Virus record (IMG/VR): IMGVR_UViG_3300028393_000001
Span: 59,963 to 123,962 of that record
Source: a virus
DNA: 64,000 nucleotides
Reading direction: 5' to 3' (one strand)
Positions within the stretch are counted from its first letter, which is position 1. Every line of letters begins with the position of its first letter. This document shows, one piece after another, positions 1 to 10,118 of this stretch. Under the pieces are notes generated by a model. That model had not been told where the DNA came from. It worked only from the letters and a program-made list of their open reading frames with translations, and ran no database searches. Both the position numbers and the translations under genes were made by a program.

Positions 1-356
1 AAAATTTTCCTCAATATCATGCTTTCCTAGATAATTATTATAATGATGTTTATGGTACAATTGATCAAGTTGCCGAATATATTCGTGCCCTAGATAGTTA
101 TACACCAGCAAGTTTAAAGCGTTTTCAAGAGTTAACTTTTATTCAAGATCAAACTATGCAACAACCCCCTATGGGAATGTTTCAAGAATTGTTCAATGAT
201 AATGCAACAATGTTAAAGTTTTTAACTGATACGTTTGATGTAGCTACTGCGGAAAGACAGCAAGGAATTGCTAATTTTATTGCTGAAAGAATTGACGCGC
301 ATCAGAAACATCAGTGGATGATTCGCAGTATTTTAAAGAGCGTAGCTTCTCTATAA
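1..356 (+). CDS. dps: Dps/ferritin-like protein, 5' end missing
   Basis: The reading frame is open from the first bases of the window (codons start at base 3) to the TAA at 354-356, so the gene begins to the left. The visible 117 residues start with NFPQYHAFLDNYYNDVYGTI, which matches the helix of Dps proteins that carries the ferroxidase ligands (F..H..L...Y.....D..AE.IR.L), followed by a four-helix-bundle C-terminus ending in HQKHQWMIRSILK. Dps proteins oxidise and store iron in a 12-mer shell and protect DNA from peroxide. The ATG at 156 is internal, not the start. The neighbours are tRNAs, and a superoxide dismutase lies further right. The family is clear; whether it binds DNA cannot be judged because the N-terminal tail is not seen. 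Confidence 0.88.
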   Translation, partial: NFPQYHAFLDNYYNDVYGTIDQVAEYIRALDSYTPASLKRFQELTFIQDQTMQQPPMGMFQELFNDNATMLKFLTDTFDVATAERQQGIANFIAERIDAHQKHQWMIRSILKSVASL

Positions 357-367
357 AAAGCTAAAAC

Positions 368-441
368 GGGCTTATAGTTAAACGGTATAACGGTAGCTTT
401 GCAAGCTTCAATTCGGAGTTCGATTCTCCGTTGGTCCACCA
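368..441 (+). tRNA. tRNA-Ala(TGC)
   Basis: Cloverleaf of 74 nt: acceptor GGGCTTA pairs with TTGGTCC (one mismatch), anticodon loop TTTGCAA, T-loop TTCGATT, and an encoded CCA end. It lies 11 nt after the Dps gene. Confidence 0.95.
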
Positions 442-463
442 CTTACACACACAAGGACATAAT

Positions 464-691
464 ATGTTTTCACTAGATTTTTACATTGACTCTTTTCAAT
501 CAACAAAAAGAGCTTTAACCAATCAGGTCTTTACTGACCCTAAACTGAACAAGGCTGCAAATAAATTTATTGACGCACAAACTCAGTTTGCAAAAATGCT
601 TGCACAAAATACAGTAGATATGCTAAAGTATTCCGCCGACGCTGTTACTAACAAAGCATTTCCAAAGGCGACCAAAAATGACACCGTTTGA
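464..691 (+). CDS. Small phasin-like helical protein, function unknown
   Basis: Encodes 75 residues beginning MFSLDFYIDSFQSTK. The ATG at 464 is chosen because AAGGA lies just upstream; a longer reading frame from 431 would run through the tRNA-Ala 3' end. The sequence is amphipathic and probably all helical (FIDAQTQFAKMLAQNTVDML), a little like the phasin fold of polyhydroxyalkanoate granule proteins, but the similarity is too weak to name it. It overlaps the next gene by 14 nt, and the two products look alike in size and helix content, so they may act together. Confidence 0.65.
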   Translation: MFSLDFYIDSFQSTKRALTNQVFTDPKLNKAANKFIDAQTQFAKMLAQNTVDMLKYSADAVTNKAFPKATKNDTV

Positions 692-902
692 AATTCGTGC
701 AGACCTGCTTAAACTAGCAGCAGATCACCTAGAAAAACAGTTTACAGCAAATGTAAAGTTTGCAACAGAATATAACAAGGCTATGTTCCAAGCAGGAACT
801 GCTGCTGCTACTGAAGCCTTAGTTAAAATGCCTACATACTTTACATCTGAAGATGTAATTAAAAAGGCAACAGAATTTTATAGTTTTGTTCAAACAAAAT
901 GA
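678..902 (+). CDS. Small helical protein, function unknown
   Basis: Encodes 74 residues, MTPFEIRADLLKLAADHLEK onward, with long amphipathic helices (FATEYNKAMFQAGTAAATEAL). It overlaps the preceding gene by 14 nt, and its TGA shares bases with the ATG of the next small gene, so translation is probably coupled. The sequence has a weak phasin-like look (helical, Ala-rich), as does the gene before it. I do not recognise a defined family. Confidence 0.65.
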   Translation: MTPFEIRADLLKLAADHLEKQFTANVKFATEYNKAMFQAGTAAATEALVKMPTYFTSEDVIKKATEFYSFVQTK

Positions 903-1042
903 AGTTATTTAAGTGCTTAAAACAATTCTTTGAGCCTAAAAATCCAATGCAAGATTTCATTGAGCGTCATAATCCTCAATCGGTTTATGATGTAGAACGA
1001 TTGCAAAAAGAGTACGACAATCTTATATTTAAACTTAAGTAA
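899..1042 (+). CDS. Hypothetical 47-residue protein
   Basis: Short reading frame starting at the ATGA overlap with the preceding stop and ending TAA at 1040-1042. The product begins MKLFKCLKQFFEPKNP and is charged and probably helical toward the end (DVERLQKEYDNLIFKLK). Support comes from the coupled start and the tight packing with the next gene, which begins two bases later. No family recognised. Confidence 0.5.
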   Translation: MKLFKCLKQFFEPKNPMQDFIERHNPQSVYDVERLQKEYDNLIFKLK

Positions 1043-1043
1043 T

Positions 1044-1241
1044 ATGCCCCTAGTAATTAAAGACCGTAAAGTAGTTTATCAGAAGCCAACTGTGGATGAA
1101 ATGCCTAAGATTGGTAAATATGTTAGCCTGAATCCAATCTTTCAAATGCATCGGGCACACGCTCATATTAGAAATCTATCAGAATCTATGAGTGTACTAC
1201 AACGTAGTTTAATTCCTGGTGCATTAGAGCAATTAAAATAA
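1044..1241 (+). CDS. Hypothetical 65-residue protein
   Basis: Encodes a 65-residue basic protein starting MPLVIKDRKVVYQK. It follows the previous stop by one base and ends just before tRNA-Asn. No motif that I can name; the C-terminal half (MHRAHAHIRNLSESMSVLQR) is probably helical. Confidence 0.55.
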   Translation: MPLVIKDRKVVYQKPTVDEMPKIGKYVSLNPIFQMHRAHAHIRNLSESMSVLQRSLIPGALEQLK

Positions 1242-1242
1242 T

Positions 1243-1318
1243 TCCCTAGTAGCACAGCGGTAGTTGCACTTGACTGTTAATCAAGTTGTCCGTGGTTCGA
1301 TCCCACGCTGGGGAGCCA
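1243..1318 (+). tRNA. tRNA-Asn(GTT)
   Basis: 76 nt. Acceptor TCCCTAG pairs with CTGGGGA, anticodon loop CTGTTAA, T-arm GTGGTTCGATCCCAC, encoded GCCA end. Confidence 0.96.
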
Positions 1319-1323
1319 TAAAA

Positions 1324-1370
1324 TAGGCCTAAACAGGCTAGTCCAGGTGCAAGTCCTGGAATTTGTACTT
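1324..1370 (+). other. Two small hairpins, possible tRNA 3'-half remnant or leader RNA
   Basis: Between tRNA-Asn and the gene at 1420 there is a 5-bp hairpin with loop AAAC, then a hairpin CCAGG-TGCAAGT-CCTGG whose 7-nt loop looks like a T-loop. No acceptor stem or 5' half can be found, so it is not an intact tRNA. It may be a decayed tRNA or part of the 5' leader of the next gene. Confidence 0.35.
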
Positions 1371-1419
1371 GAATTTTCCTTAAAAATCAATTAAAATAAT
1401 CCTTTAACTAGGAACACTT

Positions 1420-1884
1420 ATGATTAAACTAAACGACTTTTTAAACATTACCGAATATGAAACTGGACACCTTGAGGTTGTCCATCAACAAGACGTATAT
1501 GGCAAAACTGCTATTAGTCTTGAAGTCTATGGCTTTGAATTTAATAAACTAATATGCGTATATGATATAGTATCGCAAGAAGTCCTAGAAATCATAGCCA
1601 AAGACGATGCTGCTGGTAAAAGTTATGTGTGGCAAACTTCAGACATTAAAGGTTTAGGCAACTATCGCGACTACCTAATTGAGCTAGAAGCAGAAGAAGA
1701 TATTTTAGAAAAAGCTGAAGCTATTTTCTTTAATAAGCCTTATGATTCACGAATAGTTGTTCCTATTGATATTAAAGACGAAGACTTCCTCTTATACGCA
1801 AAAGCTGCACATAAACTAGACATTACTATTAATGAGTTTATGGAACAAGCCATTCAGGAAATGGTAGAAAAATATAAAGGATAA
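1420..1884 (+). CDS. Conserved-looking phage protein with possible ribbon-helix-helix C-terminus
   Basis: Encodes 154 acidic residues beginning MIKLNDFLNITEYETGHLEV. The N-terminal two thirds look like a mixed alpha/beta domain. The last 45 residues (VVPIDIKDEDFLLYAKAAHK, then LDITINEFMEQAIQEMV) have the strand-helix-helix pattern of ribbon-helix-helix DNA-binding proteins. That reading is an inference from pattern alone. AGGAACACTT precedes the ATG. The next gene follows after 3 nt, suggesting one operon. Confidence 0.7.
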   Translation: MIKLNDFLNITEYETGHLEVVHQQDVYGKTAISLEVYGFEFNKLICVYDIVSQEVLEIIAKDDAAGKSYVWQTSDIKGLGNYRDYLIELEAEEDILEKAEAIFFNKPYDSRIVVPIDIKDEDFLLYAKAAHKLDITINEFMEQAIQEMVEKYKG

Positions 1885-1887
1885 CAT

Positions 1888-2085
1888 ATGAACGTAAACA
1901 GAGTTTCTCTTCAAAAGGAAGAAGTGTACCGCCAGTGGGAAATTAAAAAGTTAGACAAGCGGCACGAAGAACTTCGAATAGAAGAACAACGTGCTAAGTT
2001 AGATCTTATAGACAATGAGCAAGCAAGAGTTGAAATGAATCGTCGAATGAATCGTCCAGGACAAAATGTAGATAGGATGGCATAA
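1888..2085 (+). CDS. Hypothetical coiled-coil protein
   Basis: Encodes 65 residues, almost all charged and predicted to be one long helix (QWEIKKLDKRHEELRIEEQR). AAAGGA lies before the ATG. Its stop TAA overlaps the ATG of the next gene (TAATG), so the two are likely translated together. Function unknown. Confidence 0.6.
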   Translation: MNVNRVSLQKEEVYRQWEIKKLDKRHEELRIEEQRAKLDLIDNEQARVEMNRRMNRPGQNVDRMA

Positions 2086-2306
2086 TGGCGAAACCTAAAC
2101 CAAAACGTAAACCCACGGGGGCTATCGACATTCAGCCAGAAGGTCCACACGTTCCGGCTATGCCTCCAGTACAAGGAAGTTCAATGATTAGTCCAGTAAG
2201 TCCCGTCGAGGCGGGTGGTGGAACGTATAACCGTCCACCGCCTAAGCCTCAACCTTCAAAACCAATGAAGACTCCTAAACCTAAACCTCCGATGCCTAAG
2301 GCTTAG
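2085..2306 (+). CDS. Small Lys/Pro-rich protein
   Basis: Encodes 73 residues with basic, proline-rich ends (MAKPKPKRKPTG and KPMKTPKPKPPMPKA) and a Gly/Pro middle. The composition suggests a disordered, nucleic-acid-binding protein, but no fold can be assigned. Coupled by a TAATG overlap to the preceding coiled-coil gene. Confidence 0.6.
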   Translation: MAKPKPKRKPTGAIDIQPEGPHVPAMPPVQGSSMISPVSPVEAGGGTYNRPPPKPQPSKPMKTPKPKPPMPKA

Positions 2307-2307
2307 T

Positions 2308-2409
2308 ATGCCCAGTCCTCGTAGAACCAGTCAGATTTTAAAGGGGAAGAAGCCGCCTAAGCCCCGAAGCCTAAATGCAATGGCTAAAAGATCGGCGCGC
2401 AAAAAATAA
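2308..2409 (+). CDS. Hypothetical 33-residue basic peptide
   Basis: ATG one base after the previous stop; product MPSPRRTSQILKGKKPPKPR followed by a basic tail ending ARKK. Very basic like its upstream neighbour. The stop runs directly into tRNA-Ser, whose first base is 2410. Support is the coupled position and similar composition. Confidence 0.45.
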   Translation: MPSPRRTSQILKGKKPPKPRSLNAMAKRSARKK

Positions 2410-2496
2410 GGAAGATGTGTTGCAAGGTGCAACAGAGGCTTGCTAAGCCTTCGTCTAGAAATAGGCCGATAGGTTCGATTCCTATATCTTCCGCCA
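2410..2496 (+). tRNA. tRNA-Ser(GCT)
   Basis: 87 nt with a long variable arm. Acceptor GGAAGAT pairs with ATCTTCC, anticodon loop TTGCTAA, T-arm AGGTTCGATTCCT, encoded GCCA. Confidence 0.95.
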
Positions 2497-2499
2497 CTT

Positions 2500-2574
2500 A
2501 GCCGTGTAGCTCAGAGGAAGAGCAAACGCTTGATAAGCGTTAGGTCGACATCTCGGAATTGTCCATGGCTACCA
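2500..2574 (+). tRNA. tRNA-Ile(GAT)
   Basis: 75 nt. Acceptor AGCCGTG pairs with CATGGCT, D-arm TAGCTCAGAGGAAGAGC, anticodon loop TTGATAA, encoded ACCA. The T-arm is unusual: GACAT-CTCGGAA-TTGTC has a mismatch and no TTC at the loop start. Confidence 0.88.
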
Positions 2575-2598
2575 TAATTATCATTAGAAGGATATAAT

Positions 2599-2787
2599 AT
2601 GAAATACCAAAATTCAATGTGGGGCGATTACAGCCCTACTCCAGCGGTTGAACAGATCGGCGTGCAGATAGAAGCAGACAATCAACCTGAGATGGTTGTA
2701 ACAGCCCAACAAATGGCTACAGACCCCTCGTGTACTACAACAGAGGATATGATTGCAGCAATGGGTACAGTACCAGCACGCTCATAA
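2599..2787 (+). CDS. Hypothetical 62-residue acidic protein
   Basis: Encodes 62 residues beginning MKYQNSMWGDYSPTPAVEQI, preceded by GAAGGATATAAT that contains AAGGA. It sits between tRNA-Ile and tRNA-Trp. The product is acidic, with no motif I recognise. Confidence 0.55.
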   Translation: MKYQNSMWGDYSPTPAVEQIGVQIEADNQPEMVVTAQQMATDPSCTTTEDMIAAMGTVPARS

Positions 2788-2801
2788 AGCTAATTTTAAG
2801 T

Positions 2802-2876
2802 GTCTCTCTAGTGTAATGGCAGCATCACAGATTCCAAATCTGTTAGGTCAGGGTTCGAGTCCTTGGGGGGATGCCA
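2802..2876 (+). tRNA. tRNA-Trp(CCA)
   Basis: 75 nt. Acceptor GTCTCTC pairs with GGGGGAT (several G-U pairs), anticodon arm ACAGA-TTCCAAA-TCTGT, T-arm CAGGGTTCGAGTCCTTG, encoded CCA. Confidence 0.93.
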
Positions 2877-2896
2877 ACTTTTTAACAGGATATTTT

Positions 2897-3316
2897 ATGA
2901 AAAAATTTATTTCAATTGCCGTTATCTCTTTTGCTGGCGTTGTTAATGCCGGAGAAATTACAGCCTCCTACTTAACCGATAGCGGACGTGATGGATATGC
3001 CATTAGTACACAGGTCAAAGGCGTTACCCTTGGAGCCTCACACGTTGATCGTGTTTATGACCGCTTCTCAGTAGGTAAATCTTTTGATATTGCTAAAGTC
3101 GGACCACTACAACTAGCAGCAGGCGGAAGCGGAGTATATCAAAGTACTCTTGCTAAAAATGATAGTGGTTATGGCCTAGCAGCTCAGGTAACAGCAACTG
3201 CTGCGGTCAATAAAAACGTTGACGTAGTTGCTGGCGTACAGAAGTTCTGGGGACAGGACCGCGTGAGTGCTCAAAATGGTAACTCGGCTACTGTTGGAAT
3301 TAAAGTTAAGTTTTAA
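2897..3316 (+). CDS. Exported small outer-membrane-barrel-like protein
   Basis: Encodes 139 residues. The ATG at 2897 follows AACAGGATATTTT and starts a clear Sec signal peptide, MKKFISIAVISFAGVVNA, with cleavage likely after NA. The mature part has alternating hydrophobic strands and a C-terminal VGIKVKF, ending in Phe as outer membrane beta-barrel proteins often do. A role as a phage-encoded surface protein (for example blocking superinfection) is inference. It is directly followed by the tmRNA region. Confidence 0.7.
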   Translation: MKKFISIAVISFAGVVNAGEITASYLTDSGRDGYAISTQVKGVTLGASHVDRVYDRFSVGKSFDIAKVGPLQLAAGGSGVYQSTLAKNDSGYGLAAQVTATAAVNKNVDVVAGVQKFWGQDRVSAQNGNSATVGIKVKF

Positions 3317-3319
3317 TTT

Positions 3320-3416
3320 AAATACACTACTTGCCACTTAATAAATATATGCGGAGACGTTCCGGACTGTGTCATTCCGCGGGTAACTGGGAGCACCCAG
3401 CATAGGTAGTGTGTTT
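3320..3416 (+). repeat. Hairpin with outer stem AAATACACTAC / GTAGTGTGTTT
   Basis: 3320-3330 pairs with 3406-3416 (one G-U). Inside are GCGGA...TCCGC and CTGGG-AGCA-CCCAG hairpins. The outer stem sequence is close to that of the hairpin at 5563-5643. It may belong to the tmRNA acceptor piece or be a separate leader structure. Confidence 0.65.
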
Positions 3417-3486
3417 TTTATTTTATAGTTGTATGAAGTAGACAGAAAAGTGTCTTGGACGGGGGTGCGAATCCCCCCAGGTCCAC

Positions 3487-3543
3487 CAGAAGTATATTCG
3501 ACCTCACACGCGGAGAGGTGAAATATAACAGAATATACTTCTG
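3487..3543 (+). repeat. 12-bp helix closing the tmRNA spacer
   Basis: 3487-3498 (CAGAAGTATATT) is the exact reverse complement of 3532-3543. It begins within the CCA end of the acceptor piece and ends three bases before the coding piece, enclosing an inner hairpin ACCTC...GAGGT. Confidence 0.9.
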
Positions 3544-3631
3544 ATGGGCCTGCATAGTTTCGACAGGGCAAAGAGTAGGAAAATGGACAACTCGGTAGGC
3601 GATGACCGTTAATCAAGCAAAACAAGTAAAC

Positions 3632-3664
3632 GCAAACGACTCACAGTTCGCATTAGCAGCCTAA
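3632..3664 (+). other. tmRNA proteolysis-tag reading frame
   Basis: Codons GCA AAC GAC TCA CAG TTC GCA TTA GCA GCC TAA give tag ANDSQFALAA. The tag starts with the resume codon GCA and ends in the ALAA degron seen in many proteobacterial tags. Confidence 0.93.
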
Positions 3665-3722
3665 ACACTGCTTAGGGTTTTGATAAGTTTTCCTCGTAAC
3701 AGAATAAACTTATCTCAAATAC

Positions 3723-3798
3723 CGCAGAGTATGGAAGTGGTCATCCGTCTGGTCTCATAAGCCTGAAATCGTTGGTTCGAATCCAACCTCTGCATCCA
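3723..3798 (+). tRNA. Initiator tRNA-fMet(CAT)
   Basis: 76 nt. Acceptor CGCAGAG faces CTCTGCA, leaving a C1-A72 mismatch, the hallmark of bacterial initiator tRNA. Anticodon loop CTCATAA; anticodon stem with GG/CC pairs; T-arm GTTGG-TTCGAAT-CCAAC; encoded CCA. It starts a few bases after the tmRNA coding piece. Confidence 0.92.
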
Positions 3799-3816
3799 AT
3801 ACGAAAGGAAAATTGT

Positions 3817-4050
3817 ATGAAATTAAAATCTACTCCAGGTGCAATGGCAAATGCCAAGATACCTACATCCGTAAGCTACGGAGCAGATGCCCCCTCCTTA
3901 GATGCTGATATGGGTGTAGAGGATATTAGTCCTACAGGTACTGATATGGATGATATTCCACCAGGCAGTTTTGAGTTATTGACTCCAACAGTTAATAATA
4001 TTAAAATTACACACGAAGGTGATATGGGACGACTAAGTCCCCTAGAATAA
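3817..4050 (+). CDS. Hypothetical 77-residue acidic protein
   Basis: ATG at 3817 after GAAAGGAAAATTGT; a longer frame from 3772 would cover the tRNA and is rejected. The product, MKLKSTPGAMANAKIPTSVS onward, is Asp/Pro-rich and probably unstructured in the middle (DADMGVEDISPTGTDMDDIP). No family recognised. It lies between tRNA-fMet and tRNA-Gly. Confidence 0.55.
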   Translation: MKLKSTPGAMANAKIPTSVSYGADAPSLDADMGVEDISPTGTDMDDIPPGSFELLTPTVNNIKITHEGDMGRLSPLE

Positions 4051-4057
4051 AAGATGA

Positions 4058-4132
4058 GCGGGCATGGTGCTAGTGGTAACACATATCCTTGCCAAGGACA
4101 AGTTGCGAGTTCGATTCTCGCTGCCCGCTCCA
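4058..4132 (+). tRNA. tRNA-Gly(GCC)
   Basis: 75 nt. Acceptor GCGGGCA pairs with TGCCCGC, anticodon loop TTGCCAA, T-arm GCGAGTTCGATTCTCGC, encoded TCCA. Its CCA end is the first part of a 20-bp helix that runs to tRNA-Ser. Confidence 0.96.
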
Positions 4133-4223
4133 TATATAAATATACTACTAAACCCGCTGAGTCAGGTTTAACTACTGGAGTTCTGAAAAGAAGGTGTCGT
4201 AAGAGTAGTATATTTATATATGG
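4130..4223 (+). repeat. 20-bp perfect helix joining tRNA-Gly and tRNA-Ser
   Basis: 4130-4149 is the exact reverse complement of 4204-4223. The left arm begins at the CCA of tRNA-Gly and the right arm ends on the first GG of tRNA-Ser(TGA). The 54-nt inside holds a hairpin AAACC...GGTTT and then an unpaired A/G-rich stretch. Confidence 0.95.
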
Positions 4224-4313
4224 AAGATAATGCAGCGGGGTTGGTCCTGCGACTGGCCTTGAAAACCAGGTTCTCTTAACAGGGATGGGGTTCGACTCCT
4301 CTGTCTTCCGCCA
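4222..4313 (+). tRNA. tRNA-Ser(TGA)
   Basis: 92 nt with long variable arm. Acceptor GGAAGAT pairs with GTCTTCC, anticodon loop CTTGAAA, T-arm GGGGTTCGACTCCT, encoded GCCA. Confidence 0.93.
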
Positions 4314-4318
4314 ATATT

Positions 4319-4885
4319 ATGAAAAAAACAATATTATCACTATTTGATTACTCAGGTAATTGGCCTAGCCCTTATAAACGGGCAGGGTATGATGTGTATC
4401 AAGTTGACGTTAAACTAGGTATAGATATCTTAGAACTTCAACCCGAGGACATACCTGATAATGTCTATGGTATATTAGCTGCTCCTCCTTGTACAGATTT
4501 TGCAGGCTCAGGAGCACAGTACTGGAAAGCTAAAGACATAGACGGACGTACTGATAGTAGTCTAGCCCTAGTAGATAAAACATTAGAAATTATTTCTTGG
4601 TGTGACCCTAAATTTTGGGTGCTGGAAAATCCTGTAGGTAGACTAAGTAAACTTAGACCCAAACTAGGAGATCCCTGGTATTTTCAGCCTTGGCATTATG
4701 GTGATGCCTATACTAAGAAAACAGGGTTATGGGGTAATTTCAATAAAAGTTTAGTAAAACAGGAGGTAATTCCTGATCCTAATTCTTGGATAATGAAACT
4801 AGGTGGTAAATCGGAGAGAACAAAAGAATTACGCTCAATGACTCCTTTAGGATTTGCAGAGGCTTTCTTTAAAGCAAACCCATAA
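4319..4885 (+). CDS. DNA (cytosine-5) methyltransferase-like protein
   Basis: 188 residues. Residues 54-65 contain APPCTDFAGSG, the Pro-Cys motif IV that carries the catalytic cysteine (C58) of C5-cytosine methyltransferases, and ENPVGRL near residue 103 is the motif VI counterpart (ENV in most). The N-terminus ILSLFDYSGNW is the S-adenosylmethionine-binding motif I region. At 188 residues it is shorter than usual enzymes (300+) and has no visible separate target-recognition domain; many phages carry such short forms. Likely role: modifying phage DNA against host restriction. No cognate endonuclease is seen. Confidence 0.85.
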   Translation: MKKTILSLFDYSGNWPSPYKRAGYDVYQVDVKLGIDILELQPEDIPDNVYGILAAPPCTDFAGSGAQYWKAKDIDGRTDSSLALVDKTLEIISWCDPKFWVLENPVGRLSKLRPKLGDPWYFQPWHYGDAYTKKTGLWGNFNKSLVKQEVIPDPNSWIMKLGGKSERTKELRSMTPLGFAEAFFKANP

Positions 4886-4893
4886 ATTTAGAT

Positions 4894-4922
4894 TTGAACT
4901 GTGAGTTAAAATTCTTTATAAT
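4894..4922 (+). promoter_or_regulatory. Sigma70-type promoter
   Basis: TTGAAC, 17-bp spacer, TATAAT (4917-4922), seven bases before the ATG at 4929. Confidence 0.8.
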
Positions 4923-4928
4923 ATCAGT

Positions 4929-5156
4929 ATGAAAAAGAAATTTAATATCCAATCTCTCTCGCCGCAAATGTCTACACCTAGAGTAACTCGCACGGATATT
5001 CCGAGCTTGTATACTCCTGGGGGTAACTGTACCCTAAAAGAAACACCTAAGTATACAGGCGACCAAATGATTGGTATTTCAATCATTCATAAGTCCTGCC
5101 TACAACCTATCTTTAGTCAACAAGAGGCTATTGATGCAGCAAGTATGCGACGTTAG
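4929..5156 (+). CDS. Hypothetical 75-residue protein
   Basis: First gene after a promoter whose -10 ends at 4922, so the transcript would be almost leaderless unless it begins at a later ATG. Product begins MKKKFNIQSLSPQMSTPRVT and ends with MIGISIIHKSCLQPIFSQQE plus a short tail. This C-terminal pattern resembles small proteins of other tailed phages, but no function is known to me. The next gene starts one base after the stop. Confidence 0.65.
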   Translation: MKKKFNIQSLSPQMSTPRVTRTDIPSLYTPGGNCTLKETPKYTGDQMIGISIIHKSCLQPIFSQQEAIDAASMRR

Positions 5157-5157
5157 T

Positions 5158-5439
5158 ATGGCTAAGTCGTTTGCAGAAATTAAAAAATCATTAGGCTTAC
5201 TAGACTTTATCCAGTTTGGTAAGTATCGTGGTTGTCGTGTAGACTCCATAGTTGCTATGGATGACGACTACCTTCGTTATATGCAAACACAAGGTATCAA
5301 GTTTGATGCTAGTGTAATGGATGCACTAACCAATAAGTTTTCAGCTGATTCTATAGAAGTAGGGTATGACCCTCGTGAAGTTCAAGAAGTAGATGAGCAT
5401 GGTTATGGCCCTATATATTTTGGCGACGTGCCTTGGTAA
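5158..5439 (+). CDS. Small DUF3820-like protein
   Basis: 93 residues beginning MAKSFAEIKKSLGLLDFIQF. The stretch FGKYRGCRVDSIVAMDDDYL followed by RYMQTQ fits the FGKYKG...D.DYLRWM pattern of the DUF3820 / exonuclease-associated small domain. ATG at 5158 is one base after the preceding stop; an in-frame upstream start at 5071 would overlap that gene widely. Biochemical role unknown. Confidence 0.65.
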   Translation: MAKSFAEIKKSLGLLDFIQFGKYRGCRVDSIVAMDDDYLRYMQTQGIKFDASVMDALTNKFSADSIEVGYDPREVQEVDEHGYGPIYFGDVPW

Positions 5440-5461
5440 ATTAATAATAAGGAGAGCTGTC

Positions 5462-5500
5462 ATGACAAGTGACAAGAGTGACAAACTGCCGGGGGTATAA
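5462..5500 (+). CDS. Possible 12-residue leader peptide overlapping tRNA-Lys
   Basis: AAGGAGAGCTGTC gives a strong ribosome binding site 5 bases before an ATG that opens MTSDKSDKLPGV and stops at TAA inside the first bases of tRNA-Lys (starts 5491). It may be the start of a gene that was replaced by the tRNA, or a real short peptide. Confidence 0.3.
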   Translation: MTSDKSDKLPGV

Positions 5501-5565
5501 CTTAGCGGCTAAAGTAACTGGCTTTTAACCAGTAAATCAGGGTTCGATTCCCTGTGCCCCTACCA
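5491..5565 (+). tRNA. tRNA-Lys(TTT)
   Basis: 75 nt. Acceptor GGGGGTA pairs with TGCCCCT (first pair G-U), anticodon arm CTGG-CTTTTAA-CCAG, T-arm CAGGGTTCGATTCCCTG, encoded ACCA. Confidence 0.95.
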
Positions 5566-5643
5566 TATAAAAATACACTGTCCTAGGCTGTGACCTAGTC
5601 CATCAGAAGTCCTCAGAGACAGAAGCAGTGTGTTTCTATATGG
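5563..5643 (+). repeat. 18-bp helix joining tRNA-Lys and tRNA-Met/Ile(CAT)
   Basis: 5563-5580 pairs with 5626-5643: 16 Watson-Crick pairs, one G-U and one A-C. The arms begin at the CCA of tRNA-Lys and end on the GG of the next tRNA. Inside is a hairpin CTAGG-CTGTGA-CCTAG and an unpaired A/G-rich part. Confidence 0.92.
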
Positions 5644-5716
5644 TAATGTAGGACAATGGTAGTCCACCTCCTTCATACGGAGAATGCTAGTGGTTCGAGT
5701 CCACTCATTACCACCA
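5642..5716 (+). tRNA. tRNA with anticodon CAT (Met or lysidine-modified Ile)
   Basis: 75 nt. Acceptor GGTAATG pairs with CATTACC, anticodon loop TTCATAC, T-arm AGTGGTTCGAGTCCACT, encoded ACCA. One of three CAT tRNAs here. Its loop differs from the usual CTCATAA of Met tRNAs, so it could be the AUA-reading Ile tRNA. Confidence 0.88.
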
Positions 5717-5722
5717 AGTTAT

Positions 5723-5795
5723 GTGTGAGAGCCAGATTAGTGATGGTGCTGATGTATTTCAGTGAAAGAGTGAGCGAACCCACTTCCACACACCA
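5723..5795 (+). other. tRNA-like degenerate element ending in CCA
   Basis: GTGTGAG at 5723 can pair with TCCACAC before an ACCA end at 5795. A D-like arm, a hairpin CTGA-TGTATT-TCAG and a T-like arm GAGTG-AGCGAACC-CACTT follow the tRNA order. The anticodon loop has 6 and the T-loop 8 bases, and the D-loop lacks GG. It is either a decayed tRNA or an unusual tRNA-like RNA. Confidence 0.4.
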
Positions 5796-5798
5796 AGT

Positions 5799-6019
5799 TT
5801 TGTTAAAGTGTTAGCAAGAGAAATCACGCTGATTAGTATTCTTCGAAGGTACTAATCAGTAGAAAGTTGCGGGTTCGATTCCCGACTTATCGCCGTTTAC
5901 GGTGGAGGTATACAGGGGCGTATCAACTGGATGAATCCCAAGTAACGTACCGAGACCTTGCCGGCCTTGTATAATAAGGTGAATGGTTCCGATAATATGG
6001 GTGGAACTACTTTAACAAA
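5799..6019 (+). ncRNA. Candidate structured RNA with tRNA T-arm, ends closed by 11-bp helix
   Basis: 5799-5809 is the exact reverse complement of 6009-6019. Inside lie a 10-bp perfect hairpin (5829-5838 with 5850-5859), a canonical T-arm CGGG-TTCGATT-CCCG (5870-5884) followed by TTATCG, hairpins near 5965-5979 (CCTT-GTATAAT-AAGG) and 5984-6005, and CGATAA at 5990 that could pair with TTATCG. No coding frame of note. The order 3' half before 5' half resembles the permuted tmRNA in this genome. Alternative: several unrelated hairpins plus a tRNA fragment. Confidence 0.5.
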
Positions 6020-6027
6020 TTAAATAC

Positions 6028-6101
6028 TGGGGGATAGTTAAACGGTATAACCGCGGATTTTGATTCCGCTATCCTAGGTTCGATTCCTAGTCCCTCTGCC
6101 A
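6028..6101 (+). tRNA. tRNA-Gln(TTG)
   Basis: 74 nt. Acceptor TGGGGGA faces TCCCTCT with an open first pair, as is usual for tRNA-Gln. Anticodon loop TTTTGAT, T-arm CTAGGTTCGATTCCTAG, encoded GCCA. Confidence 0.93.
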
Positions 6102-6104
6102 CCT

Positions 6105-6199
6105 AAGTGTTTAGGCGTGGCCATGTTGTAACGGTTAGCAACAGAGATTGTGATTCTCTTAGTCTGGGTTCGATTCCCAGTGGTCACCCCTAAACACTT
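6105..6199 (+). repeat. 11-bp inverted repeat flanking tRNA-His
   Basis: AAGTGTTTAGG (6105-6115) is the exact reverse complement of 6189-6199. It lies directly outside the tRNA-His acceptor stem and would extend it to a helix of about 18 bp, occupying nearly all of the spacer to both neighbouring tRNAs. Confidence 0.93.
6117..6188 (+). tRNA. tRNA-His(GTG)
   Basis: Acceptor GTGGCCA pairs with TGGTCAC, discriminator C at 6188 (typical of His), anticodon loop in AGAGA-TTGTGAT-TCTCT, T-arm CTGGGTTCGATTCCCAG. CCA is not encoded (CCT follows), unlike the other tRNAs here. The base at -1 is C, so G-1 would have to be added. Confidence 0.92.
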
Positions 6200-6200
6200 T

Positions 6201-6275
6201 CGGTCTTTAGTAAAATGGATATTACACAACGCTACGAACGTTGGAGTGGGAGTTCGATTCTCTCAGGATCGACCA
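6201..6275 (+). tRNA. tRNA-Arg(ACG)
   Basis: 75 nt. Acceptor CGGTCTT pairs with AGGATCG, anticodon arm CAACG-CTACGAA-CGTTG, T-arm GGGAGTTCGATTCTCT, encoded ACCA. The A34 would need deamination by host TadA. Confidence 0.94.
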
Positions 6276-6281
6276 ATTAAT

Positions 6282-6355
6282 GCGGAGTTAGTTTAATGGT
6301 AAAACAGCAGATTTCCAATCTTCGGTCAAGGGTTCGATTCCCTTACCCCGCTCCA
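6282..6355 (+). tRNA. tRNA-Gly(TCC)
   Basis: 74 nt. Acceptor GCGGAGT pairs with ACCCCGC (one mismatch), anticodon loop TTTCCAA, T-arm AAGGGTTCGATTCCCTT, encoded TCCA. Confidence 0.95.
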
Positions 6356-6367
6356 GTCTAAAATACT

Positions 6368-6538
6368 ATGCTTAGTAAAAAAGAATTTCACGGCGACCAG
6401 TTCTATGCTTGGGCCGCCCAACAATATGAAGCTGCCCGAGTTTACTTAAAGAATTGTGGTAGACCCAAAGATGAATATGATCGTTGGCTTATTGAACAGG
6501 CCAAATTTGACGCAGTTCTCTTCAAAAGATTTATTTAA
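6368..6538 (+). CDS. Hypothetical 56-residue protein
   Basis: ATG at 6368, stop TAA at 6536-6538, between tRNA-Gly and tRNA-Val. The product, MLSKKEFHGDQFYAWAAQQY onward, is charged and probably helical. No family recognised and no strong ribosome binding site, so support is moderate. Confidence 0.5.
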   Translation: MLSKKEFHGDQFYAWAAQQYEAARVYLKNCGRPKDEYDRWLIEQAKFDAVLFKRFI

Positions 6539-6539
6539 T

Positions 6540-6614
6540 GCATCCTTAGCTCAGGGGTAGAGCGTCTCTTTTACACGGAGAGGGTCCGCGGTTCGAAACC
6601 GTGAGGATGTACCA
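6540..6614 (+). tRNA. tRNA-Val(TAC)
   Basis: 75 nt. Acceptor GCATCCT pairs with AGGATGT, D-arm TAGCTCAGGGGTAGAGC, anticodon loop TTTACAC, T-arm GCGGTTCGAAACCGT, encoded ACCA. Confidence 0.96.
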
Positions 6615-6616
6615 AC

Positions 6617-6692
6617 GCAACTTTAGCTGATGTGGTCATAGCGCTGGTCTGAAGAACCAGTGAACTAGGTTCGATTCCTAGAGGTTGCACCA
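6617..6692 (+). tRNA. tRNA-Phe(GAA)
   Basis: 76 nt. Acceptor GCAACTT pairs with AGGTTGC, anticodon arm CTGGT-CTGAAGA-ACCAG, T-arm CTAGGTTCGATTCCTAG, encoded ACCA. Confidence 0.96.
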
Positions 6693-6697
6693 GATAT

Positions 6698-6775
6698 ATA
6701 TAGGCGTGCGCTGAACGGCGAGGCAGTGGATTGCAAATCCTCATAATGCAGGTTCGAGTCCTGTCGCCTATTCCA
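6698..6775 (+). tRNA. tRNA-Cys(GCA)
   Basis: Acceptor ATAGGCG pairs perfectly with CGCCTAT, anticodon arm GGA-TTGCAAA-TCC, T-arm GCAGGTTCGAGTCCTGT, encoded TCCA. The next tRNA starts at the very next base. Confidence 0.92.
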
Positions 6776-6850
6776 GGTCTTAAAGTGTTCATGGACGCAC
6801 ACAACACTGTCACTGTTGAAGAAGGGGATCGTTACCCCTTGAGACCGCCA
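6776..6850 (+). tRNA. tRNA-Asp(GTC)
   Basis: 75 nt. Acceptor GGTCTTA pairs with TGAGACC, anticodon arm CAACA-CTGTCAC-TGTTG, T-arm AGGGG-ATCGTTA-CCCCT (loop without TTC), discriminator G and encoded CCA. Confidence 0.9.
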
Positions 6851-6856
6851 AATTTT

Positions 6857-6922
6857 TGCAATGCTCATTATGAGATTGCACCTGGGCATGTTGCCCAAAA
6901 GTTCTTGCTTATAAAAGGAGAA
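6857..6922 (+). promoter_or_regulatory. ROSE-like RNA thermometer in the hsp20 leader
   Basis: Three hairpins precede the hsp20 start: 6857-6880 (TGCAAT...ATTGCA with inner CTCAT/ATGAG), 6884-6896 (GGGCA-TGT-TGCCC), and 6902-6922. In the last, TTCTTGCTT pairs with AAGGAGAA containing the Shine-Dalgarno, with G6907 of the TTGCT box left bulged. This is the layout of ROSE elements, which melt on heating to free the ribosome binding site of small heat-shock genes. Confidence 0.72.
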
Positions 6923-6925
6923 AAT

Positions 6926-7348
6926 ATGACAGAACTAACCGTGGGTCAAGTAAACTTTGGATCCAACCTCAATCGTGCTTTAATTGGTTTTGACCAACTA
7001 TTCAATAACTTAGAATATGTACAAACTACAAATTATCCACCGTACAACGTAATCAAATCTGATGAAGATAATTATATCATTGAAGTGGCTGTAGCTGGTT
7101 TCAAGAAACCGGAAATTAAAGTAGAAATTGACAATAATAAACTATCAGTAAAAGGTTCTAAAGAGAAAGAGGATACAAAAACGCAGTATCTTCACCATGC
7201 ACTTAGTGCTAGAAACTTTAATCATCAGTTTACTATTGCAGAAAATATGGTGATTAAGTCAGCCACTTTGGAAGATGGAATACTTCAAGTATTAATTAAA
7301 CGTATTGTTCCAGAATCCAAAAAAGTACGTACAATAGATATTCTATAA
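6926..7348 (+). CDS. hsp20: Small heat-shock protein (Hsp20 / alpha-crystallin family)
   Basis: 140 residues. The ATG at 6926 follows AAAAGGAGAAAAT, a strong ribosome binding site; a longer frame from 6731 would run through tRNAs. Residues about 37-130 form an alpha-crystallin domain (NVIKSDEDNYIIEVAVAGFK; LSVKGSKEKED; ATLEDGILQVLIKRIVPE), with the conserved A/G-x-L-x-x-G-x-L motif as ATLEDGIL-V. It lacks only the terminal I-x-I style tail, ending instead in RTIDIL. Small heat-shock proteins hold unfolding proteins for refolding; phage members are known in cyanophages. Regulation is probably by the thermometer just upstream, and an intrinsic terminator follows at 7363. Confidence 0.93.
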   Translation: MTELTVGQVNFGSNLNRALIGFDQLFNNLEYVQTTNYPPYNVIKSDEDNYIIEVAVAGFKKPEIKVEIDNNKLSVKGSKEKEDTKTQYLHHALSARNFNHQFTIAENMVIKSATLEDGILQVLIKRIVPESKKVRTIDIL

Positions 7349-7362
7349 TCGTAATCTTAATA

Positions 7363-7395
7363 AGAGGACTAAAGACAACTTTAGTCCTCTTTTTA
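7363..7395 (+). terminator. Intrinsic terminator after hsp20
   Basis: 12-bp perfect stem AGAGGACTAAAG / CTTTAGTCCTCT with loop ACAA followed by TTTTT. Confidence 0.95.
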
Positions 7396-7412
7396 GTTTA
7401 AAAATTATATAC

Positions 7413-7441
7413 TTGAAATACTATTCAAATTTTGATATAAT
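7413..7441 (+). promoter_or_regulatory. Sigma70-type promoter
   Basis: TTGAAA, 17-bp spacer, TATAAT (7436-7441), 24 bp before the ATG at 7466. Confidence 0.88.
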
Positions 7442-7465
7442 TATATCTTACAAACACATTATATT

Positions 7466-7897
7466 ATGAAAAACCCTATGTTTCCCTTTCCAATGATTAC
7501 AGTCAAAAATGCTCGTGACGATGGCACTAATGTACAGGATGTTATTAACCATATTAAATTAGCTGAGGATAATCTTCGTAAAGAGATGTTGCTTAAAGCT
7601 AAACTTTGTGGTGTTGGTATTGTACATATTAAAAGTGCAGAAGGCGAGTGGCGTAAAGGCGGTATGACAGTTGCCTTTAAAAAGTCTAATCAATATAAGT
7701 ATGGCCGTATGGTAGAAGTAGCCGTGGCTGTTTGTAGCCCAGAAGATACTTTTAGCCGTAAAATCGGTACTCAAATGGCCCTAGAAAAATTCTTCTCACA
7801 AAAAGTAATTGAGTTGCCCTTGTTAGAATTTTATGGTCAGGAAGATATTAACATGGCAGTTAAAAAAGCATTTACAGCTATGTGGCACGCGATATAA
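7466..7897 (+). CDS. Hypothetical 143-residue protein
   Basis: First gene behind a near-consensus promoter. Product MKNPMFPFPMITVKNARDDG onward is a mixed alpha/beta protein with no signal peptide or membrane segment. No Shine-Dalgarno is visible in the roughly 20-nt leader (ACAAACACATTATATT). I do not recognise a family. tRNA-Leu and tRNA-Met follow within 5 bases. Confidence 0.75.
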   Translation: MKNPMFPFPMITVKNARDDGTNVQDVINHIKLAEDNLRKEMLLKAKLCGVGIVHIKSAEGEWRKGGMTVAFKKSNQYKYGRMVEVAVAVCSPEDTFSRKIGTQMALEKFFSQKVIELPLLEFYGQEDINMAVKKAFTAMWHAI

Positions 7898-7902
7898 TTA
7901 AT

Positions 7903-7985
7903 GCGGGTGTGGTGGAATGGTAGACACAGGAGACTTAAAATCTCCCGCTTTATGCGTGCTGGTTCGACTCCAGTCACCCGTACCA
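7903..7985 (+). tRNA. tRNA-Leu(TAA)
   Basis: 83 nt, class II with variable arm. Acceptor GCGGGTG pairs with CACCCGT, anticodon arm GGAGA-CTTAAAA-TCTCC, T-arm CTGGTTCGACTCCAG, encoded ACCA. Confidence 0.95.
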
Positions 7986-7990
7986 AAATC

Positions 7991-8065
7991 TCCTGTCTAG
8001 CATAATGGTAGTGCCGCGAACTCATAATTCGTACAGTCTGGGTTCGACTCCCGGGGCAGGAACCA
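7991..8065 (+). tRNA. tRNA-Met(CAT), probably elongator
   Basis: 75 nt. Acceptor TCCTGTC pairs with GGCAGGA, anticodon arm GCGAA-CTCATAA-TTCGT, T-arm CTGGGTTCGACTCCCGG, encoded ACCA. Fully paired acceptor start, so not an initiator. Confidence 0.92.
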
Positions 8066-8095
8066 AATTTTGTAATCTTAATAAGGAAAATCTAA

Positions 8096-8488
8096 GTGGC
8101 AATTAAACGTGGTAAATCAGCAGAAAGTCATTTTGCATCATATAAAACTTCAAAGCGTTGGGAATCTAATCGCAGGAAGAAGCTAGAACGTCAACTTAAA
8201 CTACAGCCTAACAATGAGCAAGTAAAGAAAGCCTTCTCTAATATTCATTACAGACGTAAAACTCCTGTAGTACGTGAATGGAGTGCCACTACGATTAGAA
8301 TGGCTAAAATAGTTAAACTATTTACAGGTAGGTTTGATCGAGATATTTTAAGCTCAAATAAAGATACAGCATCCTTAGCTATTCAGAAATCAGCATCTAG
8401 ACCAGAGCAACAAAAAAGTAAAATCCAGATTGCAGACAAAAACTTCTTCTCCATTGGTGCTCGCCTAAGTAGTGGCTCGCTTGCATGA
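8096..8488 (+). CDS. Basic protein of unknown function, GTG start
   Basis: 130 residues, starting at GTG 8096 behind AAGGAAAATCTAA, which fits a ribosome binding site. The N-terminal half is strongly basic (MAIKRGKSAESHFASYKTSK; WESNRRKKLERQL), suggesting RNA or DNA binding. No known domain is recognised. It overlaps the next gene by 4 bases (ATGA). Confidence 0.7.
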   Translation: MAIKRGKSAESHFASYKTSKRWESNRRKKLERQLKLQPNNEQVKKAFSNIHYRRKTPVVREWSATTIRMAKIVKLFTGRFDRDILSSNKDTASLAIQKSASRPEQQKSKIQIADKNFFSIGARLSSGSLA

Positions 8489-8736
8489 GTTTTATTGACT
8501 GGTATTTACTATTCAGTTTAACAACAGCAGTATGTGCAGTATGGGAACTACTAGTTCCTGTAATGAATACAGAAAAAGAAGAAATGGGTAAGATTGACGC
8601 AGAAAAACTAATATATATAGTGTTTTTTATAATGTCAATTATATTAGCTCCTTTAGTATTTCTTAGTTGTATAATCCCCTCTATGAGCGATAGATTTAGA
8701 AGTTCGTTACATAGTGGGCTTTTTCCCAAAGAATAA
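8485..8736 (+). CDS. Small membrane protein with two transmembrane segments
   Basis: 83 residues. Two hydrophobic stretches (WYLLFSLTTAVCAVWELLV and LIYIVFFIMSIILAPLVFLS) separated by a charged linker (MNTEKEEMGKIDAEK) predict an integral inner-membrane protein with both segments crossing. Starts in an ATGA overlap with the preceding gene. Function unknown. Confidence 0.72.
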   Translation: MSFIDWYLLFSLTTAVCAVWELLVPVMNTEKEEMGKIDAEKLIYIVFFIMSIILAPLVFLSCIIPSMSDRFRSSLHSGLFPKE

Positions 8737-8747
8737 AAAATTTGCAG

Positions 8748-8776
8748 TTGCACTGTAATGCTTAAACAGGTATAAT
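8748..8776 (+). promoter_or_regulatory. Sigma70-type promoter
   Basis: TTGCAC, 17-bp spacer, TATAAT (8771-8776), 28 bp before the ATG at 8805. Confidence 0.85.
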
Positions 8777-8804
8777 ATATACTTAAACAGCCCAATAAAC
8801 AACT

Positions 8805-9080
8805 ATGAAAACACTAACATTTAAATACGCAAAAGCAGATGGTTCAGTTTCTTATCGCTCACTTCTAGTGATGGTATCCCCTAATACTATGTATGAGGGC
8901 CTGGATATTTCAGAACTAGAGTCAGCAGACCAAGCTGAATTTGAGTCCCTAATGAGTTCAGCGTACAATAATTATATTAATGAAATTAATACTCTAAAAG
9001 AAGAGTTTGACATTAAGCACAGTTATCGTCGTTTTGACCCCAAGAAAATGACTGAGATCAATGAATTGGAAAAAGTATAA
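8805..9080 (+). CDS. Hypothetical 91-residue protein
   Basis: Behind its own promoter. Product MKTLTFKYAKADGSVSYRSL onward begins with a beta-hairpin-like stretch and continues as an acidic helix (ELESADQAEFESLMSSAYNN). The start resembles small WYL-like or SH3-like beta domains, but this is weak. tRNA-Thr begins two bases after its stop. Confidence 0.7.
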   Translation: MKTLTFKYAKADGSVSYRSLLVMVSPNTMYEGLDISELESADQAEFESLMSSAYNNYINEINTLKEEFDIKHSYRRFDPKKMTEINELEKV

Positions 9081-9081
9081 C

Positions 9082-9156
9082 GCCGGATTAGCATAGTGGT
9101 AGTGCTCCCGCCTTGTAAGCGGGAGGTCGTTAGTTCGATTCTAACATCCGGCACCA
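9082..9156 (+). tRNA. tRNA-Thr(TGT)
   Basis: 75 nt. Acceptor GCCGGAT pairs with ATCCGGC, anticodon arm CCGC-CTTGTAA-GCGG, T-arm GTTAGTTCGATTCTAAC, encoded ACCA. Last tRNA of the bank in this window. Confidence 0.96.
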
Positions 9157-9170
9157 CATATGTAGTAATT

Positions 9171-9440
9171 ATGGAACAAAAACGTAATCCTAGAAAATTT
9201 AGACTTTGGGATAGTAATGCACTACACGAAAATTTACAAGTATGTATACAGTATCAAACTGCAATTGAAGAAGCAGTAAAGCAGTCAACAATTGATGATA
9301 CTCCAGTATTAAATTCAACTATACCTACAAACTCACTATATGACATTGTTACTTGTTATATAGCAATGTATGAAAAAATATTAGCTGAAGATTTACTTCA
9401 GACTAATGGCACTCCCGTAAACAGAAACCAAATCCACTAA
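9171..9440 (+). CDS. Hypothetical 89-residue protein
   Basis: ATG at 9171 chosen; the longer frame from 9096 would lie inside tRNA-Thr. Product MEQKRNPRKFRLWDSNALHE onward, mostly helical, with no recognised domain. A downstream gene follows after 12 bases with AAGGAAA before its start. Confidence 0.6.
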   Translation: MEQKRNPRKFRLWDSNALHENLQVCIQYQTAIEEAVKQSTIDDTPVLNSTIPTNSLYDIVTCYIAMYEKILAEDLLQTNGTPVNRNQIH

Positions 9441-9452
9441 GGAAATTTAAAA

Positions 9453-9806
9453 ATGGCATGGACAGAAGAACAAAAACAGTCAGTTATCGAAGCATATAAA
9501 GCAGGTGACCCGACCCCCGAAAACTCAACAGAGTTGATTAAAGAAATTGCAGAAGAAATGGAACAGAGTGCAAACGGTGTTCGTATGATTCTAGTACAGG
9601 CAGGTGTATATGTGAAGAAAGAAGCTTCTACATCTATTGCCAAAGGCGGTACTTCTAAGTCTACAGGTACTCCTCGTGTTTCTAAGGACTCACAGATTGC
9701 AGAGTTGCGTGCTCTCATTGAAGCTAAAGGCGCTGAAGTGGATGACGAGATTCTTACAAAGCTGACTGGCAAAGCCGCAGCTTACTTCGCCAAAGTAATG
9801 GCGTAA
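9453..9806 (+). CDS. HTH-type DNA-binding protein, related to the gene at 13129
   Basis: 117 residues. Residues 1-50 (MAWTEEQKQSVIEAYKAGDP; ELIKEIAEEMEQSANGVRMI) show a SANT/Myb-like or GcrA-like three-helix pattern: W-T-x-E at the start, then a helix-turn-helix that ends S-A-N-G-V-R. A Ser/Thr-rich linker and a second helical part follow. The gene at 13129 carries several repeats of the same pattern (W-S-D-E...S-V-x-x-K). Likely a phage transcription regulator or DNA-binding protein; target unknown. A terminator follows directly. Confidence 0.72.
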   Translation: MAWTEEQKQSVIEAYKAGDPTPENSTELIKEIAEEMEQSANGVRMILVQAGVYVKKEASTSIAKGGTSKSTGTPRVSKDSQIAELRALIEAKGAEVDDEILTKLTGKAAAYFAKVMA

Positions 9807-9808
9807 TT

Positions 9809-9835
9809 AATGGCAGCTTAGGCTGCCATTTTTAT
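9809..9835 (+). terminator. Intrinsic terminator
   Basis: Stem AATGGCAGC / GCTGCCATT with loop TTAG followed by TTTATTT, three bases after the stop of the HTH gene. Confidence 0.93.
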
Positions 9836-9845
9836 TTATACAATT

Positions 9846-10118
9846 ATGTTTATAGTATATTCAAAAGAAAACTGCCCCTACTGTGTGCAGTCTAAAGCCC
9901 TACTCAAGTCTAAGGGACTAGAGTACATAGAACTAATGCTAGACTTGGGCCAGTCCCACAAACCTGATACTGAGTATGTATTCTTACATGATTTAGAAAA
10001 AATATTACCAGGTGTGCAATCAGTGCCTCAAATCTTTGAACGTCTTGATGGAGCAGCTCCTGCAACTCAACACATTGGCGGTTTCAAAGAGTTAAAGGAA
10101 TACCTCAATAAATCTTAA
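9846..10118 (+). CDS. Glutaredoxin
   Basis: 90 residues with the redox motif C-P-Y-C at positions 10-13 (MFIVYSKENCPYCVQSKALL), the conserved cis-proline in VQSVPQIF, and the glutathione-binding HIGGFKEL near the end. The fold and length fit classical glutaredoxins. It probably supplies electrons to the phage ribonucleotide reductase at 26663, as phage glutaredoxins such as T4 NrdC do. It lies directly after a terminator. Confidence 0.93.
   Translation: MFIVYSKENCPYCVQSKALLKSKGLEYIELMLDLGQSHKPDTEYVFLHDLEKILPGVQSVPQIFERLDGAAPATQHIGGFKELKEYLNKS

Follow-up and report, generated by a model that had tools for sequence, protein, structure and literature searches.

Annotated stable RNAs of T5-like phages

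In the genome record of phage T5 (AY543070), RNAI, RNAIII, RNAIV, and others in the tRNA cluster are annotated as "stable RNA with unknown functions." RNAI and RNAIII are likewise annotated in phage BF23 (NC_042564), in the order RNAI-GCCA, RNAIII, tRNA-His. In T5, a helix of 20 positions runs from the GCCA of RNAI, around RNAIII, to TGTGGC, which is the start of tRNA-His. The annotated ends of T5 RNAIII fall within this helix and give a 2-nt 3′ overhang, which is what cutting by RNase III leaves; the RNAIII 3′ end abuts the tRNA-His annotation and may have been placed from that gene, in which case the overhang is not independent evidence. At the RNAI site of T5-like phages, the outer arms (GCCACAATTGA and TCAATTGTGGY) are fixed and enclose three unrelated cores. 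T5 RNAIII also contains a palindrome, TCTAGA, within TTCTAGAA. Elsewhere in phage T5 (L172 15428 to 15534), an unannotated helix of 20 positions with a 67-nt core lies immediately upstream of tRNA-Tyr.

A helix bridges tRNA-Lys and tRNA-Met in a T5-like lake phage

The window, which is the whole stretch of 64,000 nt analyzed here, is part of a 123,962-base virus record and carries a tRNA cluster and a permuted tmRNA within its first 9 kb. A split NAD-dependent DNA ligase is about 44% identical to the ligases of T5-like phages, with 99% of the query covered; judged by this ligase, the carrier is a T5-like lake phage. Positions 38438 to 54298 (minus strand) hold one repetitive open reading frame of 5,286 aa, followed by more long, repeat-rich frames.

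The genes for tRNA-Lys(UUU) (5491 to 5565), with an encoded CCA, and tRNA-Met(CAU) (5642 to 5716) lie on the plus strand, as do S3 and, below, S1, S2, the F1 element, and the tRNA-His helix; both are real genes, with gene calls of 69 and 65 bits. The feature between them, S3, consists of a 5′ arm (CCATATAAAAATACACTGT; 5563 to 5581) that begins in the 3′ end of tRNA-Lys, a 43-nt core (5582 to 5624), and a 3′ arm (GCAGTGTGTTTCTATATGG; 5625 to 5643). The helix runs from the CCA of tRNA-Lys to G1G2 of tRNA-Met and so overlaps both genes. Pairing of 5563 to 5581 with 5643 to 5625 gives 16 Watson-Crick pairs, 2 G·U pairs, and one A·C mismatch (5570·5636), and an earlier sequence-only reading, which counted 18 bp with 16 Watson-Crick pairs, was correct over the first 18 of these 19 positions. 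The inner hairpin that it placed near the left arm is present at 5583 to 5598 (CTAGG at 5583 to 5587 with CCTAG at 5594 to 5598, loop CTGTGA) and is the single clear hairpin in the core. The A/G-rich single strand that it described survives as a moderate enrichment only, since 15 of the 26 residues in the 3′ half of the core (5599 to 5624) are A or G by direct count.

The 81-nt stretch folds with a z score of −4.13, and none of 200 shuffled sequences folded as well. In a comparison that leaves out modified bases and proteins, the full bridge together with the tRNA-Lys acceptor stem reached −69.6 kcal/mol, versus −66.9 kcal/mol when both acceptor stems form and the bridge is shortened. The bridge and the tRNA-Met acceptor stem are mutually exclusive at G1G2, and the slight preference for the full bridge suggests that cutting or remodelling would be needed before tRNA-Met folds fully. 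This competition, between states about 3 kcal/mol apart, could also be that of a regulatory switch in which the helix covers the CCA and the tRNA-Met acceptor and a trigger makes release of the tRNAs timed or conditional. However, there is no ligand-type conserved core at the tRNA-Lys site, where cores vary among phages, and we regard such a switch as very unlikely.

No terminator-like site was found. Positions 5566 to 5641 gave no match to Rfam 15 covariance models, even at E values up to 2. The S3 core has no homologue among the sequences searched, and its fold is a predicted one.

Long helices start at some CCA ends in the window and its relatives

All 64,000 bases of the window were scanned for helices with a loop of at least 18 nt and a span of at most 170 nt. 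Four reached a score of at least 16 (3478 to 3552, 4129 to 4224, 5561 to 5645, and 6105 to 6199), and each of them is at a tRNA or tmRNA gene. Among 25 dinucleotide shuffles of the first 12 kb, none contained a helix at 17.4 or above. The first of the four, S1 (3478 to 3552), is the intervening segment of the permuted tmRNA; it sits between the acceptor and coding pieces (RF04321 match of 136.8 bits at 3427 to 3664) and lengthens the acceptor stem and CCA to 22 positions with one C·A mismatch. S2 (4129 to 4224) joins the CCA of tRNA-Gly to the GGA of tRNA-Ser through a perfect 21-bp helix (arms 4129 to 4149 and 4204 to 4224). At 6105 to 6199, a leader/trailer helix extends the acceptor stem of tRNA-His by about 11 bp, a related arrangement.

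Several further RNA features lie in the same cluster. The tRNA-Ser(UGA) downstream of S2 (4223 to 4313) was missed by ARAGORN and scored below threshold in Rfam as tRNA-Sec; over 93 bases it shares 97.8% identity with part of the relative L033. The tRNA-His leader/trailer helix is also present in L019, L033, L096, L129, and L130. Positions 5716 to 6027 hold two more likely RNAs, which resemble T5 RNAI and RNAIII: one is a degenerate tRNA-like stretch ending in CACACACCA, and the other is closed by TTTGTTAAAGT and ACTTTAACAAA and contains a T-arm motif and a hairpin loop with CTTCGAAG.

The sequence-only reading had named a lack of more instances at tRNA junctions in related genomes as the result that would count against it. 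Further instances were found among 80 IMG/VR loci that encode a related ligase. Among 437 distinct tRNA CCA ends in these relatives and the window, 51 have a helix that starts at the discriminator-CCA and scores at least 13, versus 0.6 expected from shuffled downstream sequence; a few of the 51 are tmRNA acceptor pieces called as tRNAs by a relaxed search. The layout that it described recurs, then, at these ends as well as in T5 and in the intervening segments of permuted tmRNAs. About 88% of tRNA ends in the relatives have no helix, which argues that the bridge is not required for tRNA processing in general.

The 3′ arm mostly ends in TGGN, where N is complementary to the discriminator base (A-T in 26 cases, G-C in 11). 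In the arms of tRNA spacers, G·U pairs outnumber A·C mismatches 74 to 23 under a scoring that treats the two equally, and this excess points to selection on plus-strand (tRNA-sense) RNA. C·A is common in tmRNA intervening segments, since the position facing C74 is mostly left unpaired. By comparison across the relatives, the bridge helix was shown to be preserved by pairing.

Cores are exchanged between fixed arms

The arms CCATATAAAAAYACAYT and ARTGTGTTYCTATATGG of the tRNA-Lys site are common to the window, L033/L112, and L094, and the window and L094 share the identical A·C mismatch; the enclosed cores appear unrelated in a by-eye comparison. The same behavior was seen at other kinds of site, where site assignment by sequence pattern makes the cluster counts approximate: 23 elements at junctions from a tRNA to the tmRNA acceptor piece fall into 10 core clusters, 18 elements after tRNA-Ser(UGA) into 10, and 54 tmRNA intervening segments into 34. 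Six core clusters are each represented at two or more kinds of site. The sequence comparisons show the enclosed core to be exchangeable between kept arms.

These results do not support the proposal that S1, S2, and S3 belong to one RNA class within reach of a single covariance model. The three have no alignable core, their sequences match nothing beyond copies of this genome, and cores at one orthologous kind of site split into 10 to 34 unrelated clusters. Because no meaningful structural alignment of the three cores could be obtained, the covariance model gave way to a direct scan for helices. That structure and not sequence is kept holds among S1, S2, and S3 and fails at the tRNA-Lys site of other phages, where arm sequence is also kept. 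The tmRNA spacer S1, cited in support of a shared class, does share the layout, but it is ordinary on its own, as CCA-pairing hairpins also occur in bacterial permuted tmRNAs. The common feature of the bridges is an architecture and not one RNA family.

Candidate known families and ribozymes were also considered. Rfam scans at gathering thresholds of the window and seven relatives yielded only tRNA, tmRNA, and chance matches, with no match to GOLLD or ROOL, and permissive scans of window positions 1 to 10000 and of L021 700 to 2200 gave nothing beyond these kinds of match. An apparent resemblance of the L021 intervening segment to a pistol-like motif was unsupported by the permissive Rfam scan.

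The exchange of cores admits two readings besides a functional RNA. In one, the helix is a processing or separating stem only, and the core is a functionless passenger free to drift and be replaced. Many unrelated core clusters per site between kept arms are what this predicts, and some intervening-segment cores resemble coding sequence or tRNA debris; for example, the cores of L006 3538 to 3670 and of the L129 tmRNA segment resemble short coding sequence and not structured RNA. Several core families, however, keep their sequence and turn up at different sites from one phage to another, the F1 family described below has invariant positions and a covarying palindrome, and the T5 record lists RNAIII as a stable RNA. 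We consider a passenger core rather unlikely. In the other, the elements are DNA-level mobile cassettes, with terminal inverted repeats or single-stranded DNA hairpins, aimed at tRNA 3′ ends. Cores do move between sites, the arms behave as exchange points, and free-standing F1 elements exist. Yet the arms differ by site while remaining complementary and matching the local discriminator base, and G·U is favored over A·C on one strand; mobility at the DNA level is very unlikely to account for the bridges.

A variable palindrome in F1 cores

One F1 element lies in the window upstream of the tmRNA acceptor piece (3320 to 3416; arms 3320 to 3333 and 3403 to 3416) and has the palindromic loop TCCGGA. 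The F1 core pattern (GCCACTTAA...GGAG...TTCCRCGGGT) is present in 79 IMG/VR stretches. A search of bacterial genomes gave five pattern matches, all chance on reading; plasmids gave none, and isolated phages gave short chance matches only. The pattern is absent from S3, which clusters apart from F1.

About 30 positions of the F1 core are invariant across 26 sequences. Most core positions being invariant, consensus folding found little covariation beyond one P2 pair. A 6-nt palindrome sits in the P2 loop of 49 of 53 distinct cores, 46 of them at one fixed offset, and 12 different palindromes are used. Shuffled loops would give 8.5 palindromes and 3′ halves dealt anew would give 5, although the sequences are related and these counts are not independent events. 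Unless two copies pair with each other, repeated change from one palindrome to another is difficult to account for, and the variable six-base palindrome appears to be the mark of a kissing-loop homodimer.

These palindromes raise the possibility that cores self-assemble by kissing-loop homodimers, as in GOLLD, ROOL, and OLE complexes, with the tRNA-linked helix as the production route; this is compatible with a spacer that is processed from a tRNA precursor and adds a function for the core. Palindromes also occur in other core families and in T5 RNAIII, and the palindrome-switching argument has precedent in OLE and GOLLD RNAs (PMC12286853). Against this, the only palindrome of S3, CCTAGG (5582 to 5587), lies inside a predicted stem, and S1, S2, and nearly all cores of cluster F2 contain no 6-nt palindrome. 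Self-assembly of the cores is a reasonable possibility that falls short of being probable. We suggest, more tentatively, that T5-like phages make exchangeable, self-associating small RNAs that would be clipped from tRNA and tmRNA precursors by cutting of the bridging helix, many of them with kissing-loop palindromes through which the RNAs could pair as homodimers or build larger RNA-only assemblies in the course of infection.

S3 as a probable processing joint

Taken together, the data suggest that S3 is probably a spacer cassette of the T5 RNAIII type in a polycistronic tRNA precursor, a processing joint from which the two tRNAs and a small stable RNA would be released. Before cutting, the helix would mask the CCA of tRNA-Lys and compete with the acceptor stem of tRNA-Met. 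A double-strand RNase, for which host RNase III is the simplest candidate, could then cut both strands of the 18- to 20-bp helix in the transcript. The two tRNAs would thereby come apart, with a short 3′ trailer on tRNA-Lys to be trimmed by exonucleases and a short 5′ leader on tRNA-Met to be removed by RNase P, and the core would be released as a small structured RNA.

This processing model is favored by a helix that is far above chance and confined to tRNA and tmRNA genes, by its recurrence at 51 of 437 CCA ends, by covariation of the discriminator and the base opposite it, by the excess of G·U over A·C in the arms, and by the RNAI, RNAIII, and tRNA-His arrangement that T5 and BF23 share. 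Arms are kept around unrelated cores at the T5 RNAI, tRNA-Lys, tRNA-Ser, tRNA-to-tmRNA, and tmRNA sites, the full bridge is energetically favored, and no terminator-like site was found. Against it stand T4 rnaC and rnaD, which are bridge free, the large helix-free majority of tRNA ends in the relatives, and the lack of a homologue of the S3 core among the sequences searched.

Comparison with known systems

Our literature search, with most older T5 papers outside its reach, did not find the bridge, the core exchange, or the link to phage tmRNA segments. For T5 stable RNAs, whose functions are listed as unknown in the genome record, the comparison supplies an architecture (a bridge from CCA to the next tRNA), an evolutionary behavior (cores that are swapped while the arms stay fixed), and a model of processing that can be tested; it also ties these RNAs to the intervening segments found in phage two-piece tmRNAs. 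With the F1 palindromes, short transcripts suffice for a direct test of whether RNAs from phage tRNA clusters associate with themselves.

Permuted two-piece tmRNAs (Rfam RF04321 and RF01850) likewise have a hairpin between the CCA and the 5′ half in which the CCA region is paired, and S1 is one such intervening segment. Opposite C74, these phage tmRNAs usually keep a mismatched base other than G, whereas in tRNA spacers the CCA is fully paired. The two bacterial segments viewed by eye, in ARAGORN output for two genomes, are short hairpins, while phage segments have larger cores. The T4 species 1 and species 2 RNAs (rnaC and rnaD) are likewise small and stable and lie where a phage tRNA cluster ends, but lack a helix bridging from a tRNA CCA. 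GOLLD and ROOL are phage RNAs near tRNA islands that form homo-oligomers through loop contacts (PMC12286853), to which the F1 palindromes are comparable; unlike bridge cores, they are hundreds of nucleotides long and have other folds.

The closest counterpart is RNAIII of T5 and BF23. The S3 core is unrelated in sequence to that of T5 RNAIII, which has an apical palindromic loop where S3 does not clearly have one, and S3 is known here from its sequence while RNAIII is annotated as a stable RNA. Like RNAIII, S3 follows the CCA of one tRNA (in RNAIII, of a tRNA-like RNA) and precedes another tRNA, within a long helix from the discriminator-CCA to the 5′ bases of that second tRNA; arms are kept and cores exchanged at its site, and it is carried by a T5-like phage. 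In kind, S3 is the T5 RNAIII arrangement.
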